49,319 nucleotides of DNA, from assembly GCA_947454425.1 (NCBI GenBank), contig CANGJV010000002.1, forward strand, positions 1 through 49,319, given 5' to 3'. This stretch comes from Candidatus Nanopelagicaceae bacterium (GTDB lineage: Bacteria > Actinomycetota > Actinomycetes > Nanopelagicales > Nanopelagicaceae). Positions within the stretch are counted from its first letter, which is position 1. Each line of letters begins with the position of its first letter. Of this stretch, positions 28,488-35,996 are shown piece after piece. The notes below the pieces were generated by a model. It had not been told where the DNA came from and did no database searches. It saw only the letters and a program-made list of their open reading frames with translations. A program made the translations under genes and the position numbers.

Positions 28488-29093
28488 CTAAAGGTTGGTT
28501 CGGCCTTCAAAGGCGCGCCCGAGCGTAACTTCATCAGCGTATTCAAGATCTCCACCTACGGGAAGGCCTGAGGCAAGGCGTGAGATTTTAATTCCGGTCG
28601 GCTTAATCAGGCGAGCCAGGTACATCGACGTCGCCTCTCCCTCAAGGTTGGGGTCGGTAGCGACAATGACCTCAGTAATCGTCGTATCTGAAAGGCGCTG
28701 CATCAACTCGCGAATTCGAAGCTGATCTGGACCAATGCCATCGATCGGACTGATGGCCCCGCCGAGGACGTGATACTTGCCGCGGAATTCGCGAGTACGT
28801 TCGACTGCAATCACATCTTTCGACTCTTCGACGACACAGATTTTGGAAGGGTCACGGCGAGGATCGCGACAGATTCGACATTGCGTTTCTTCGGAGACGT
28901 TTCCGCACTCGGTGCAGAACTTCACGCGCTCTTTAACAGTGCGCACCGCATCAACAAGTGCATCTGCAAGCTCTGACTCTGATTGCAAGATATGAAATGC
29001 AATGCGTTGTGCGCTCTTTGGACCAATTCCAGGCAAGCGACCTAGTGCATCAATGAGATCTTGAATTGCGCCTTCATACATTCCGCTAGACAT
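28488..29093 (-). CDS. recR: Recombination protein RecR
   Basis: [24 protein letters not shown], four-Cys zinc motif [16 protein letters not shown], Toprim [13 protein letters not shown]. Confidence 0.97.
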
Positions 29094-30862
29094 CAGTCGT
29101 GCTTCGTTTCACTGATAATTGTTGCGCCAAGTTCGGCAGCAAGCAGTGCGGCGCCAGATAATTGAGTGGCATCTGTCGGAGCTTCTGTTGTTCTTACTGC
29201 GCGCGCCTCTGGTGTGCTTGTGGTGTCAATACTTGGATCGACTGTGACTTCAATCTTGCGATCGAGCCCAACAATTTCGATAAATGCATCGCGCAAAATG
29301 GCATCTGACTCGCTGCGCAAGAATGAATCTCGAGCACCGGCATTCACGATGCCAATCGTGATGTTCTTATCGTCTACTCCAAGAATCTGCGCGCTTGCAC
29401 TTAAGAGTGACCAGGTAAGACGTCTGCGCTTCTTTACATTTTCGATTACCTCAGGCCACATCCGGCGCAGGCCAGAAACATCCATGGCATCAATCTTTGC
29501 AGCGGGTTTATTGGGTGCAACTGCATCAACAATTTTCTTCTCTTCCTTAGGAGCCCGAACCGCTTCGGCCGTGGCACGTGATACATAATCTTCCGGATCG
29601 GGAGCAGTTTCTTTTGCTGGCTGTACAAGTCGAGGTTCTGTCGGAACGACAGTGCTCGACGGTGCAGCGACCTTTGAAACTGCTTGTGGTGCGGGAGCGA
29701 TGTTTTCTACGCGTTCCAGGCGTTCGATTCGCGAAAGTAAACCAGCGGCGGAGTTATCGCCAATTGGCAACAAAATTCGTCCGCAAATGAGCTCAAGAAT
29801 TAAGCGCGGAGCGGTGGCGCCACGCATCTGTGTAAGTCCTTCAGATGCAATATCAGCAGCGCGAGAAAGTGAAGCCTGGCCAATGTTCTGCGCTTGCAAA
29901 CGCATACGATCAAGTTGATCATCAGGAAGCTCGCGCAAAATGCTATTGGCATTAGTCGCCTGTAGCGCATCAACAATCATGAGGTCGCGTAGCCGCTCGA
30001 GTAAATCTTGAGTAAAACGGCGAGGATCGTGTCCGGATTCGATTACACGATCAACAGTTTGAAAGAGAGTTGAACCATCGCGCGCAGCGATTGCATCCAT
30101 CGCATCATCAAGGAGCGCGCCATCGGTAAAGCCAAGGAGCTGCACCGCAATCTCGTAACTGACTCCATCTTTGCCGGCACCTGCAAGCAACTGCCCAAGA
30201 ACGGATAGGGCATCGCGAACAGAGCCACCAGATGCGCGCACAACAAGTGGAATAACGCCCTTTGCAACTTTGACGCCTTCTGATGCGCAGACCTTTTCAA
30301 GATGCGCAGCCAATGTTCCGGGTGGAACCAAACGGAATGGATAATGGTGTGTACGAGAGCGAATTGTTGAAATCAATTTCTCTGGCTCAGTTGTAGCAAA
30401 GATAAAGATGACGTGTGCAGGTGGTTCTTCTACAACTTTGAGAAGTGCATTCGCCGCACCGGTACCTAGTTGGTGCGCCTCATCGATGATGTAAATCTTG
30501 TACTTGCTCTGCACTGGTGCAAAGAATGCTTTATCGCGAAGATCACGTGCATCATCTACAAGTCCGTGGGTCGCAGCATCAATTTCGATGACATCGAGTG
30601 AACCCGGACCGTTAGCAACTAAGTCTTTACAGGATTGACATTCGCCACATGGATTAGGTGTTGGACCTTTTTCGCAATTGAGCGAGCGCGCCATGATTCG
30701 CGCAGAAGATGTTTTACCGCAACCACGTGGGCCGCTAAAGAGATATGCGTGATGGGTCTTACCGGATTCGAGGGCATTAGAAAGTGGAACTGTTACATGT
30801 TCTTGTCCGATCACATCTGCAAATACGGATGGACGGTACTTCCGATAGAGAGCAAGGCTCAT
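29093..30862 (-). CDS. dnaX: DNA polymerase III subunit gamma/tau
   Basis: [62 protein letters not shown]. Confidence 0.97.
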
Positions 30863-31123: not shown

Positions 31124-31208
31124 GGAGGATTCGCATAGCGGCCGAGTGCGCACGCTTGGAAAGCGTGTATAGGGAAACCTATCGAGGGTTCAAATCCCTC
31201 ATCCTCCG
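31124..31208 (+). tRNA. tRNA-Ser (anticodon GGA)
   Basis: GGAGGAT...ATCCTCC acceptor, CACGC-TTGGAAA-GCGTG anticodon arm, long variable arm, GAGGG-TTCAAAT-CCCTC T-arm. Confidence 0.96.
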
Positions 31209-31220
31209 CAGGCTGTGGAT

Positions 31221-31252
31221 ATCTCAATCCTCATTAATTAAGAGATTGAGAT
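31221..31252 (+). repeat. Inverted repeat/hairpin directly after tRNA-Ser
   Basis: Perfect 9-bp stem atctcaatc/gattgagat, 14-nt loop; no T-tract. Confidence 0.5.
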
Positions 31253-31261
31253 TCTCCCCGG

Positions 31262-31741
31262 ATGAAACAAAACTCAAAATATAGATACTTCTTATCTTTC
31301 TTGATTCTTACGCTAATGGCCCTGGCGCCTTCAGCTCACGGTGTCTCAACAGTCATAACTCCACCGCTTACCAAGTGCTTTATTGATATTCGAGATGCTC
31401 ATATCTCAACAACAATTTTTAAGAAGGAGGGGCGACTTGCGGTTAAAGTAAATGCCATCTCGAGTTGTAACACACTTCAAAGGAATGTAGTTCTAACGGT
31501 AAAAATTTTCAAAGAGGGTCGGTTTGGTTCACAACTTGTTCAGGAAAGAAGTACAGATGGAAAAAGTCCGAAATCGCAAGGTTTTATCGTTAAGAATCAA
31601 TTTACCTTTGCTTACTGCAAAAATACGACGAAAACAAGGTACTACGGGATAGCCACAGCACGGGCAATAATTAATGGTAAGTCCTATTTCACTCATCCAG
31701 TTCGTTCAGAAAATATTACTCAGCTCGGATGCGGTACTTAA
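31262..31741 (+). CDS. Hypothetical secreted protein, four-cysteine family (paralogue of 33268..33777)
   Basis: Signal-peptide-like N-terminus YFLSFLILTLMALAPSAHG; C-x29-C-x49-C-x37-C. Confidence 0.75.
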   Translation: MKQNSKYRYFLSFLILTLMALAPSAHGVSTVITPPLTKCFIDIRDAHISTTIFKKEGRLAVKVNAISSCNTLQRNVVLTVKIFKEGRFGSQLVQERSTDGKSPKSQGFIVKNQFTFAYCKNTTKTRYYGIATARAIINGKSYFTHPVRSENITQLGCGT

Positions 31742-31755
31742 GTTAGGATTTAGGC

Positions 31756-32133
31756 ATGGCTGAGGTTGATCCGCTAGATGACTCAATTGTGAGATACGTA
31801 ATTCGTCGCCATAGTTACGATCCTGCAACCAGACACTTCAAGTGGTTTGATGAAAGAGCATTTGATAATAAAAAAGAATTTGAAGCGAGCCTTCAAGAGG
31901 CTGGCTTCGAATTGGAGAGTCGTCAAGTCAAAGGTCAGGCTCATCATAAAGAGCAAATCATGGGACAGGTATTAGCAATTAATTATCTCGTGGAATCGAA
32001 ATCGCGCAGGAAAATGCGAAAGGCTGAAGGAGCCTTCGTTCCAGCTACTTTTAAGGCGAGGCTTCTCTTTGCCTTATCGACAAAACGTTTTTTGCTTTCT
32101 AACAGAAGGCGTAGAAGGTGGTTTGATGCATAG
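31756..32133 (+). CDS. Hypothetical small basic protein
   Basis: 125 aa; TAGGAT-N6-ATG upstream; Arg-rich C-terminus runs into the tRNA-Ser remnant. Confidence 0.6.
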   Translation: MAEVDPLDDSIVRYVIRRHSYDPATRHFKWFDERAFDNKKEFEASLQEAGFELESRQVKGQAHHKEQIMGQVLAINYLVESKSRRKMRKAEGAFVPATFKARLLFALSTKRFLLSNRRRRRWFDA

Positions 32134-32207
32134 ACTCGTTTCGTGCGCACGCTTGGAAACCGTGTATCAGGCAATCTATCGAGGACTGTAATCAATCGTC
32201 CTTCGCC
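32117..32207 (+). pseudogene. Degenerate tRNA-Ser copy
   Basis: From 32143 aligns without gaps to the 3' part of tRNA-Ser(GGA) for about 65 nt (about 14 mismatches by eye); T-stem and T-loop destroyed, anticodon stem mismatch. Confidence 0.8.
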
Positions 32208-32289
32208 TCAATAAATTCACTTTCAATCTATTTCATTTCGACGCCTTCCCACCTACCTTTGCGGGGTATCGGCAAGGAACGGAGAGATC

Positions 32290-33195
32290 ATGAGCACAGA
32301 AGTTATCGATTACACGGGCACAATGACCTGGGAGCATGGCACCACTTGGTATCGCGTAGTCGGCGATCTCAAATCAAAGATGACACCAGCAGTGGTCTTG
32401 CACGGTGGCCCAGGTGCGCCCCATAACTATGTCCTCGGAATAGTTCATCTCATTGCGATGACTGGCCGACCAGTAATTGTTTACGATCAAATCGGTTCAG
32501 GTCAATCAACACATATAAAAGATAAGCCTAAGGAATTTTGGACCGTTGACCTCTTTAAGCATGAGCTTAATTTAATTCTCAAAGAGCTAAAAGTTTCTAA
32601 GAAGTACATCTTGGTTGGTCAATCATGGGGCGGAATTCTCTCCTTTGCGCATGCTGTTGATAAACCAAAAGGTCTTAAGGGATTGATCATCGCTAACTCA
32701 CTTGCATCTGTTCCTAAGTGGTTACCTGAAATTGAACGACTTGTTTCAGAACTTCCTTCAGTACATCGCAAGGCAGTGGCAAAAGGCTTGAAGGAGAACA
32801 ACTTCACCGCGCCAGAATTTGCTGCAGCTAATGATTACTTCACATTGCAGCACTTAGCGCGCGTTCCAATGACTCCAGATGTTGTGGCCTCATTCGGACA
32901 GCTTGCAGAGAACCCAACTGTGTACGAAGCAATGTGGGGACCCGTTGAATTCGCACCTATCGGTTCACTTCGTACTTGGACCGTTGAAGATCAATTGCAT
33001 AATATAAAGGTTCCAACACTTTTGATTAATGGTAAGTACGATGAAGTAACACCAAAGACACAGAAGCGACTTGTGAAGAAGATTAAAGGCGCAGAATGGG
33101 TTTGTCTTCCTTACTCATCACATCTATCGTGGGTGGAAGAACCAGCCGCGTGGATTGATGCGGTGGGTACCTTCTTGAAGCGTAAAAAGCTTTAA
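32290..33195 (+). CDS. Alpha/beta hydrolase, proline iminopeptidase-like
   Basis: VVLHGGPGAPHNY, YDQIGSGQS, LVGQSWGGILSF nucleophile elbow; GGAGAG ribosome-binding site. Confidence 0.87.
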   Translation: MSTEVIDYTGTMTWEHGTTWYRVVGDLKSKMTPAVVLHGGPGAPHNYVLGIVHLIAMTGRPVIVYDQIGSGQSTHIKDKPKEFWTVDLFKHELNLILKELKVSKKYILVGQSWGGILSFAHAVDKPKGLKGLIIANSLASVPKWLPEIERLVSELPSVHRKAVAKGLKENNFTAPEFAAANDYFTLQHLARVPMTPDVVASFGQLAENPTVYEAMWGPVEFAPIGSLRTWTVEDQLHNIKVPTLLINGKYDEVTPKTQKRLVKKIKGAEWVCLPYSSHLSWVEEPAAWIDAVGTFLKRKKL

Positions 33196-33267
33196 CGTAT
33201 CAAGACGTTTCTAGTTACTGGGGGCTGCCTGATTTATTTGGCTGCATGCATTAACTAGCTTGTCGGG

Positions 33268-33777
33268 ATGCCTATAACCATCCCAAAGCCGACAAATCTC
33301 ATCCCAAAGCTTGTGAAAGCCAAGGTGCCAGTCTGGCTCGTGGCCGCAATAGTCGCAGCAGACGTTGTGGCTGTTCAACTAGCTCAGCCAAAAGAACCAA
33401 TTTGCACATTAAAGGTGGACTACCCCCATCATTCGACTTCAGTCAAGAAGTATTCAGGAGTCGACGCCATTAAAGTCAACATTGTTTCTAAGTGCGACGT
33501 GGATCAGTCTTACACATTGGTAGACGCGACGATTTTGGAAAAAGTGGGTGGCAAAATTCTTAACCACGATTTTTTACAAGTTAGAGCGAACGCCGATTCA
33601 GATCAACGGACAAAGGCGTTCTTTAAGAATCTTTGGAAGACTTGCAAATTCGGAAGTCAAGTCGAGTACGCAGGAAAAGCACGCGGAGAAGTGCATCTAG
33701 TAGGTGGAAAGGTTGTTTCTGTTTCAGATGACTCTGGAAAATACTTCCCACAAAAATGCCAAATTACGGCAAAATAG
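33268..33777 (+). CDS. Hypothetical exported/membrane-anchored protein, four-cysteine family
   Basis: N-terminal hydrophobic segment; same C-x29-C-x49-C-x37-C spacing as 31262..31741; TAGCTT-N6-ATG. Confidence 0.72.
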   Translation: MPITIPKPTNLIPKLVKAKVPVWLVAAIVAADVVAVQLAQPKEPICTLKVDYPHHSTSVKKYSGVDAIKVNIVSKCDVDQSYTLVDATILEKVGGKILNHDFLQVRANADSDQRTKAFFKNLWKTCKFGSQVEYAGKARGEVHLVGGKVVSVSDDSGKYFPQKCQITAK

Positions 33778-33781
33778 GAGG

Positions 33782-34282
33782 ATGAGCTTGTTTGAGAAGT
33801 ATCTTGCTCTTGGCCAATGGATTAGCCAAGAGGAACAGCTTGCACTTTATAAGTATTTGAGCAGAACAAAAGCTTCTGCTTATCGTGATGATGCAAAAAG
33901 ATTATTGGCTGAAGGCGAATTGATAAGACAAATTGCAGATGGTGAAATTTTATATAGGGTTTTGCGAAATAAACTCATATATAGAGCAAAAGAAATGAAT
34001 CGCGCGGAGTATTCCGAGGTAATCCGTGAAGTAAATCTAAGCAGATTTCATTCAGTAAATATTTCTAAGTTTGTGAAGTTTTTTGCTCAAGCTGAGGTGG
34101 ATGTCATTTGCAATTACCCTTTGCCTGGAATCGACCAAGAAGCAGGAAGTGGCTTTAATTGGGTCGTATTCCCATGTTACGACTTAAATTATTATTCACG
34201 TGGCAAGGGCAAAGTTAAGGGCTTTCTGATGAAGTTACGAGCGAAAGATCATGAACTTCTTCAGAAACTTCTCGCTTCTTAG
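33782..34282 (+). CDS. Hypothetical protein
   Basis: Met at 33782 preceded by GGAGG; internal to longer ORF-track entry 33704..34282. Confidence 0.65.
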   Translation: MSLFEKYLALGQWISQEEQLALYKYLSRTKASAYRDDAKRLLAEGELIRQIADGEILYRVLRNKLIYRAKEMNRAEYSEVIREVNLSRFHSVNISKFVKFFAQAEVDVICNYPLPGIDQEAGSGFNWVVFPCYDLNYYSRGKGKVKGFLMKLRAKDHELLQKLLAS

Positions 34283-34320: not shown

Positions 34321-34581
34321 ATGCGCACACATTGGCTCTGGGTAAAGAACAACTGGAAACGTCTGCCTCATCCCATTCGTTGGATAGTCGCCTCTTCTGT
34401 AGGTTTCACGCTCTTCATTCTTGGAATCATCTTTATGTTTCTGCCAGGGCCGGGGATCCCATTGATTATTGGCGGCCTAGCAATCCTTGCAACTGAATTT
34501 GCGTGGGCTGAAGTTTTATTAAATCGCACCAAGCATCATGCTGCTAAGGCAGTAACTAAAGTTCGAAAGAAGAAGCCTTAG
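34321..34581 (+). CDS. PGPGW-type small membrane protein
   Basis: FLPGPGIPLIIGGLAILATEFAWA; TAGAAT-N6-ATG. Confidence 0.85.
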   Translation: MRTHWLWVKNNWKRLPHPIRWIVASSVGFTLFILGIIFMFLPGPGIPLIIGGLAILATEFAWAEVLLNRTKHHAAKAVTKVRKKKP

Positions 34582-35996
34582 ATCTCAACGCCGATGTACT
34601 TGGTCTGCAAGAACTCGTGAATTCCATCGAAGCCACCTTCGCGACCAAGACCTGACTGCTTGACTCCACCGAATGGCGCTGCAGGATCAGAGAGCATGCC
34701 GCGGTTGATTCCAACCATTCCAGCTTCTAACCCTTCAGCAAAGCGGATTGCTCGCTTGAGATCTTCAGAGTAAACGTAACTAATAAGACCGTACTCGGTG
34801 TCATTTGCTAGCGCGAGAGCTTCTTCATCTGTATCAAAGAGAACAACTGGTGCAACAGGTCCAAAGACTTCGTTTGCGAGAATCTCATCGTTCTTTGGAA
34901 CTTCGATCACTGTTGGAGGGTAGAAAGCACCTGGGCCATCAGGTGTTGTTCCACCTGTGTGAATTTTTGCTCCGCGAGAAGTTGCGCCATCAACCAGCTC
35001 GGCAATTTTATTGCGCTCTTTCATTGAAACAGATGCGCCGAGAGTGATACCAGCATTGCGACCGACTCCCATAGTCATTGCAGCCATTGTCTTTGTGAAC
35101 TCTGCAATAAATTTATCTCCGATTGATCGTGCAACATAAATCCGGTTAGCAGCTGTACATGCAGCGCCACCATTGCGCATCTTCGCCAACATTAAACCTT
35201 TAACTGCTTCTTCAATATTTGCATCTTCCAGTACTACGAATGGCGCGTTTCCACCGAGCTCCATAGAACAACGGATGACTTGATCTGCAGCTTCGCGTAA
35301 CAAAATCTTTCCAACTGCCGTTGAACCAGTAAACGATAGATTCTTAACTCGTGAGTCGTGAAGCAACTGCGAGACTGCCGGCCCCGTCTGAGCTGGAAGA
35401 ATTACATTGATAACTCCCTTTGGAAGTCCAGCACGTTCCATAATGTCTGCGATTGCAAGAACAGTAAGTGGAGTCTCGCCAGCAGGTTTCAAAATCATTG
35501 TGCATCCGGCCGCAACAGCTGGACCAATCTTGCGAGTTGCCATTCCTGCTGGGAAGTTCCACGGAGTAATAAGGAGTGAGACGCCAATAGGTTGGTGTGT
35601 TACCAAGATGCGCTTATCGCCAGATGGTGAAAGTCTGAAGTCTCCTGATGTGCGAACTGCTTCTTCTGAGAACCAACGGAAGAATTCAGCTGCATAAGCA
35701 ACCTCACCTCTTGCATCAGGCATTGCCTTGCCATTTTCGCGTGAGATTAACTCTGCGATCTGCTCTGCCTCAGCAGTCATGATTTCAAAGGCCTTGCGCA
35801 AAATCTCACCACGCACGCGAGGGGCAGTCTTCGCCCAATCGGCTGCGACTCGATCTGCTGCTGCGAGTGCGGCAAAATTCTGTTCGTCACTCGAGGTAGC
35901 GACTGAGGCGATAACTGAGCCATCGCTCGGGTCAATTACCTCAAGAGTGCCGCTTCCATCTACCCATTGACCATCGATATATAACTGAGTGCGCAT
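34578..35996 (-). CDS. gabD: NAD(P)-dependent succinate-semialdehyde dehydrogenase-like aldehyde dehydrogenase
   Basis: TPWNFPAGMATRKIGPAVAAGCT, FTGSTAVGK, MELGGNAPFVVLEDA, NGGAACTAANRIYV. Confidence 0.88.
   Translation of the reverse strand: MRTQLYIDGQWVDGSGTLEVIDPSDGSVIASVATSSDEQNFAALAAADRVAADWAKTAPRVRGEILRKAFEIMTAEAEQIAELISRENGKAMPDARGEVAYAAEFFRWFSEEAVRTSGDFRLSPSGDKRILVTHQPIGVSLLITPWNFPAGMATRKIGPAVAAGCTMILKPAGETPLTVLAIADIMERAGLPKGVINVILPAQTGPAVSQLLHDSRVKNLSFTGSTAVGKILLREAADQVIRCSMELGGNAPFVVLEDANIEEAVKGLMLAKMRNGGAACTAANRIYVARSIGDKFIAEFTKTMAAMTMGVGRNAGITLGASVSMKERNKIAELVDGATSRGAKIHTGGTTPDGPGAFYPPTVIEVPKNDEILANEVFGPVAPVVLFDTDEEALALANDTEYGLISYVYSEDLKRAIRFAEGLEAGMVGINRGMLSDPAAPFGGVKQSGLGREGGFDGIHEFLQTKYIGVEI

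Follow-up and report, generated by a model that had tools for sequence, protein, structure and literature searches.

The window, the whole 49,319-nt stretch of DNA analysed here, is a contig of a 1.27-Mb MAG of the genus Ca. Planktophila in the acI order (Nanopelagicales) and carries two genes for proteins with four cysteines each, hereafter the 4-Cys proteins A and B. A (31262..31741, + strand) has 159 aa, a signal peptide and the C-terminal end CGT, and B (33268..33777, + strand) has 169 aa, the N-terminus MPITIPKP, a TM segment and the C-terminal end ITAK. The cysteines lie at positions 39/69/119/157 in A and 46/76/126/164 in B, giving the same C-x29-C-x49-C-x37-C spacing. A first-pass annotation had taken the two for paralogues on the basis of this spacing, and the ORFs, pairwise BLASTP (E = 9e-7, 25% identity over 106 aa), shuffling and profile-profile comparison bore this out: the A-B alignment scored 76, a value reached by 0/5000 shuffles (shuffled-B mean 27, sd 5), and the two profiles, with 15-17 relatives per side, matched with a probability of 99% and an E value of about 1e-18. 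The residues HxST and A[VI]KVN, listed earlier as common, are present in both proteins. The N-termini also agree with the export or anchor segments proposed before; judged from the sequence, A has a cleavable-type signal peptide and B an uncleaved-type TM segment (helix 22-38 in the AF2 model). As the earlier failure to recognize a named family had implied, no match to A or B was found in Pfam, NCBIfam, PHROGs, PADLOC or PDB sequence; PHROG tail-protein and glutathione-peroxidase matches were weak (E > 0.02) and were put down to chance.

In the AF2 model of B, which was built with 9 sequences, the TM helix is followed by an all-beta domain with pLDDT mostly 88-97. C46 stands at the start of strand 1 and C76 at the end of strand 2, with C126 after strand 5 and C164 after the final strand, an order compatible with predicted disulfides C1-C2 and C3-C4. 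The domain is modelled with confidence as a beta-sandwich, and its Ig-like matches are generic only: the best Foldseek matches, to LEA14/WHy (1yyc), ApaG and the TMEM106B luminal domain (2e-4 to 4e-3), were weak, with TM-scores of 0.3-0.5 and 6-11% identity over long, loosely superposed stretches. These three are, like the model of B, all-beta sandwiches of similar size, but they have no sequence relationship to B and none has the four-cysteine pattern; LEA14/WHy, ApaG and other Ig-like Pfam families gave no sequence profile match to the 4-Cys proteins. The BFVD fold search returned low-TM generic matches only. The small beta-rich fold that had been anticipated for both proteins agrees with the model of B and with the homology of A to B by profile.

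The neighbourhood of A and B is bordered upstream by dnaX (29093..30862, - strand) and downstream by an aldehyde-dehydrogenase-type gene assigned by eye (34578..35996, - strand). An intact tRNA-Ser(GGA) gene detected by ARAGORN (31124..31209, + strand), on which the first-pass annotation was silent, lies immediately 5' of A and forms the upstream border of the cassette site. Between A and B are three further features, all on the + strand: a cargo gene, orf125 (31756..32133), in the usual place of the ~110-aa partner of A; a degenerate tRNA-Ser(GGA) copy (32143..32206), 80% identical to the tRNA-Ser 3' part, which repeats the intact tRNA in direct orientation at a distance of 997 nt; and a proline-iminopeptidase-family hydrolase (32290..33195; TIGR01250, E 5e-74). 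The tRNA remnant and the peptidase-like hydrolase noticed earlier between the two genes were both recovered in this way. B is followed by its own cytoplasmic partner gene (33782..34282, + strand; 166 aa) and by a cargo gene for a small membrane protein with a PGPGW domain (34321..34581, + strand; PF09656).

The partner of B was called from 33704 in the mechanical ORF list (33704-34282), a start inside B that is a start-codon artefact. The likely start is the ATG at 33782, 4 nt past the B stop and preceded by TAGGAGG, which overlaps the B stop codon. Across relatives, B-type genes are followed by a 166-aa gene starting about 4-6 nt past the B stop, and A-type genes by a ~110-aa gene, usually 8-44 nt downstream. 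Homology links the two partner types (hhalign probability 98, E 2.8e-13), which have in common a Y..QA..LL core and a FFAQSE-type helix; the whole bicistron was therefore duplicated, and duplication of the 4-Cys gene alone was rejected. The accessory locus with duplicated modules suggested by the first-pass annotation is thus real, with a two-gene cassette as the duplicated unit; that annotation had missed the two-gene unit, the lineage-wide fixed tRNA-Ser hotspot and the DnaA box in the leader. The AF2 model of the B partner consists of helices, four strands and a long helix, and no solved structure matched it at E below 0.29. In six-frame searches, 51 copies had both genes of the pair intact; in 9 the partner was intact but the 4-Cys gene broken, and in 7 a partner stood without any 4-Cys gene, as it did in 4 more copies near contig ends. 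The profile picked up no partner for ten intact 4-Cys genes; inspection revealed a divergent partner in 3, leaving 7 without a detectable intact partner (A of the window, G236, G312, G336, G340, G356 and G373). Partners without an intact 4-Cys gene thus stand against intact 4-Cys genes without a partner at 16 vs 7 (about p = 0.09), counts in which some broken genes may be MAG errors. A clean toxin/immunity asymmetry, in which partners vastly outlive 4-Cys genes, was weakened by this recount. Tandem partner genes occur in G318, G319, G330, G349 and G002. In the window, A is without its own partner, with orf125 in its place, and B retains its own.

Since A and B share too few conserved stretches for a joint profile, relatives were searched with sub-family alignments. 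Profile searches matched the 4-Cys family in 70/296 genomes of the acI order and in 8/17 sampled genera, by which a family confined to one genus was rejected, and in a class-wide sample of 395 genomes matches occurred only within the window's own family. The lineage restriction predicted for the family therefore held in the profile searches, and tandem occurrence, also predicted, was seen in some cases. Within Ca. Planktophila the family is present in 24/44 good genomes, and the module is also present in Ca. Planktophila lacus and IMCC19121, both of which have complete genomes. The spacing x29, x49-51, x37 is kept in nearly every full-length member across 8 genera, with exceptions in G037 (no C2) and G229 (x38). 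The libraries searched contain no description of either the 4-Cys or the partner family.

Almost every copy sits between dnaX and the aldehyde-dehydrogenase-type gene, on the tRNA strand and downstream of tRNA-Ser(GGA). The tRNA border holds for nearly all relatives whose contig spans that point, and the dehydrogenase-type gene is kept in nearly all relatives; copies outside the usual site were found in G267/G268 and on one G341 contig. Empty sites have 18 nt (G030) or about 10 nt (G001) between the tRNA and the dehydrogenase, other genomes have unrelated cargo at the hotspot, and in G051 two intact tRNA-Ser(GGA) copies flank the A module. The hydrolase also occurs in the hotspots of G120, G060, G010, G033 and others, and the PGPGW-domain gene is common to the closest relatives, G120 and G060. 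Although orf125 had no family match in library searches, it represents a recurrent cargo family found before or after the 4-Cys module (window 31756-32133; L073, L065, L108, L117, L135); in G010 its relative comes after the normal partner. No recombinase was found among the island genes of the window or among 20 cargo proteins scanned elsewhere.

Other contents of the hotspot were also observed. Related alternative cargo in G082 (L088, 4015-7604) and G200 (L128, 8955-12550) includes a collagen-repeat protein by the tRNA and a 514-525 aa protein without a family, and that of G082 also has a LuxR-type response regulator. A small gene pair that by eye is Phd/Doc (Fic-type) toxin-antitoxin-like was seen at L072 (2416-3014, flipped) and L075 (4642-5240). 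In addition, the location of tRNA-Ser(CGA) varies, being within the island in some genomes and downstream of a transporter gene in others (L065, L068, L071, L074, L079, L090), so that even a tRNA gene seems to move together with the hotspot.

Protein distances of the 4-Cys proteins correlated with those of their partners (r = 0.74 for A and 0.84 for B), and those of the flanks, dnaX and the aldehyde dehydrogenase, correlated with each other (0.69-0.89), whereas the correlation of either cassette protein with dnaX was only 0.25-0.35 (0.28-0.35 for the 4-Cys proteins). In G067/G097/G199 the module had a dS of 0-0.01 against a dnaX dS of 0.20-0.33. Because 4-Cys and partner genes track each other and not the flanks, the cassettes are swapped as whole units through recombination at the conserved flanks. 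Sequence identity in G039/G211 (86% for the 4-Cys protein vs 50% for the partner) points to occasional partner swaps. The dN/dS of both genes was below 1 (about 0.04-0.6), and whole genes gave no sign of positive selection. Such values would suit an ordinary envelope accessory protein, either an adhesin or a stress factor, that has a dedicated helper in the cytoplasm and diversifies by drift and recombination; adhesins commonly have Ig-like folds, and intact 4-Cys copies without a partner exist. However, patchiness within the genus, swapping of alleles and frequent decay would not normally be seen with a maintenance function, and we consider this explanation quite unlikely.

We then turn to the leader of the 4-Cys genes, in which the 9-mer TGTGGATAA recurs, the complement of the DnaA box TTATCCACA. 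An exact copy is present in 38 of 71 leaders and a copy with one mismatch in 18, compared with exact occurrences in 19/5000 random 150-nt windows. In 55 leaders the 9-mer (<=1 mismatch) begins at -46 to -49 from the start codon, mostly 47 or 48 nt 5' of the ATG in A-type and 49 in B-type genes, at any distance from the tRNA; box-to-ATG spacing is constant and tRNA-to-box spacing varies, the tRNA being 3 to 260 nt away. Upstream of A of the window, the DnaA-box-like 9-mer TGTGGATAT (complement ATATCCACA; 31214..31222, + strand) lies at -48 with one mismatch, a variant also found beside dnaA in the same genome. B has a decayed box, TGGGGGCTG (33219..33227, + strand), at the B-type position -49, where relatives have TGGGGATAA. 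The aligned leaders have a -10-like element at -12 to -7, immediately before the ATG, with A at -11 in 38/53 and T-rich at -7/-6, and no conserved -35. Putative -10 elements in the window are GATTCT for a leaderless promoter of A (31250..31255, + strand) and TAGCTT for B (33256..33261, + strand). The layout suggests a leaderless, activator-dependent promoter with the box centre near -43.

Pattern searches, on which the box counts rest, found the exact 10-mer TGTGGATAAC 2-7 times per complete genome searched, mostly beside dnaA; the exact extended box is otherwise rare and clusters at oriC/dnaA. The one-mismatch leader variants ATATCCACA, CTATCCACA, TTATCCCCA and TTACCCACA recur beside dnaA. 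The leader box thus corresponds to the DnaA box of the organism itself and has a conserved place in the promoter, as in a DnaA regulon, and DnaA probably binds it. If the match to a DnaA box were fortuitous, the 9-mer could be a core promoter element or the site of another regulator, which the constant distance to the start codon would also suit and a TANNNT-like reading of GATAAC would allow. This is improbable given the distinct -10-like element at -12 to -7 and the genome-wide rarity of the 10-mer, which is concentrated beside dnaA, the tolerated variants being those found there.

Checked sites that are empty or otherwise filled were devoid of a box near the tRNA, except for one-mismatch matches at the orphan-partner site of G022. 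Module and DnaA box were also found together at a different chromosomal place in G267 and G268 (L102, 3231-4061; L103, 4656-5486), which indicates that the box travels with the module. As it is fixed relative to the ATG and nearly absent from the examined sites without a 4-Cys gene, the box belongs to the 4-Cys gene. It has also to be asked whether the box instead serves replication or titration in a tiny mobile element that is excised between tRNA-Ser repeats, since A is flanked by tRNA-Ser direct repeats in the window and in G051. Its position, however, follows the ATG and not the tRNA, and the scans of island and cargo genes recovered no recombinase; this account is very improbable, and we retain regulation of the 4-Cys gene by DnaA as the preferred reading.

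Two observations on DnaA boxes elsewhere were made in passing. Four DnaA-box-like 9-mers are clustered directly 5' of dnaB in the window's genome (L187, G000:C25, 1243-1327). Several complete acI genomes have an exact DnaA box about 9-11 kb from dnaA (G014:C1:10435, G015:C1:10448, G082:C1:324935, G200:C1:245033, G211:C1:1420243, G349:C3:39445), which could be a titration or reset site; its interpretation as a dnaB-adjacent box was rejected, as no dnaB is there.

Taken together, we propose, with a probability of roughly 0.55, that the window has two copies of one acI-specific cassette, of which A and B form the exported halves, and that this cassette is controlled by DnaA, with antagonism as its likeliest role. 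DnaA would bind the box (centre about -43) and switch on a leaderless promoter without a conserved -35, so that the bicistron would be made when DnaA is free and active, at replication initiation or stalling. The 4-Cys protein would be exported by Sec, A being cleaved and released and B remaining tethered, and each would adopt an Ig-like beta-sandwich fold that C1-C2 and C3-C4 disulfides close, with the cytoplasmic partner as the cognate of its 4-Cys protein. Because A is without a perfect box and a partner and B is without a box, the window's copy of the locus is probably partly decayed. As for the role, we tentatively put first an antagonism within the lineage in which the 4-Cys protein would be the effector and the partner an immunity-like protector, on account of co-transfer, tandem and orphan partners and the decay of 4-Cys genes. 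Partner swaps and the seven intact 4-Cys genes without an intact partner speak against strict toxin/immunity, and such copies would not be expected if the 4-Cys protein were a lethal toxin with obligatory immunity.

Phage exclusion ranks second and is on balance unlikely. Here, a variable, Ig-like exported domain would block phage adsorption at the cell surface or serve as a decoy for it, the partner would act on infection within the cell, and phage pressure would swap the cassettes. The exported, variable protein is swapped at one tRNA hotspot, and a tRNA-Ser(gga)-flanked replacement island in another streamlined freshwater/marine lineage was described as phage defence (PMC10872708). On the other hand, no PADLOC model of anti-phage defence families matched, the neighbouring cargo sampled consists for the most part of metabolic or unknown genes and not of recognized defence genes, and the commonest 4-Cys form appears released and not surface-bound. 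The viral contigs searched contained no relatives, by which a viral origin was also rejected. A fuller proposal, to which we give somewhat less weight than to antagonism itself, is that acI bacteria possess a swapped exported-protein/cognate-partner system, serving as a weapon or in phage exclusion, that is switched directly by DnaA and is replication-timed or disturbance-triggered.

In lakes, the acI actinobacteria rank among the most abundant cells. Their genomes are trimmed to about 1.3 Mb, and many of them nonetheless keep and constantly exchange an unexplained cassette. Phages that infect the order have been isolated (PMC10202952). The cassette adds two new protein families, one with a fold matching no solved structure. 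A DnaA box on a mobile accessory gene, if functional, would tie competition or phage defence to chromosome replication. A literature search on the DnaA box with Planktophila found nothing, and we know of no description of an exported-protein cassette that is swapped and has a positioned DnaA box of its own.

In effector/immunity pairs with orphan immunity arrays, an exported protein and a small cytoplasmic partner are transferred together, and partner genes occur in tandem. The acI cassette likewise combines an exported protein with a small partner (51 intact pairs, 8 genera) and has co-transfer and tandem partners, but it has no known toxin or immunity domain, and its exported gene is at times kept without a protector (7 vs 16). 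Both tRNA-bordered replacement islands (PMC10872708) and DnaA-controlled genes (PMC8203912) are already known. Replacement flexible genomic islands at tRNA-Ser(gga) were described in Ca. Methylopumilus/OM43 (PMC10872708), and the acI hotspot similarly has a constant site with a tRNA-Ser(gga) border, content swapped by recombination and conserved flanks in a streamlined plankton host; it differs in phylum and in its unrelated genes, and the swapped content can be as small as one two-gene cassette. Tycheposons (PMC10872708) also have cargo beside a tRNA gene and tRNA-derived repeats, whereas their tyrosine recombinase was not found in the window island or the 20 cargo proteins, and the acI unit is about 1 kb. 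Finally, DnaA-regulated genes (PMC8203912) resemble the 4-Cys leader in having a TTATCCACA-type box upstream, but they are core genes, whereas the 4-Cys module is a horizontally swapped exported-protein module with a single box at a constant distance above a leaderless-type promoter.
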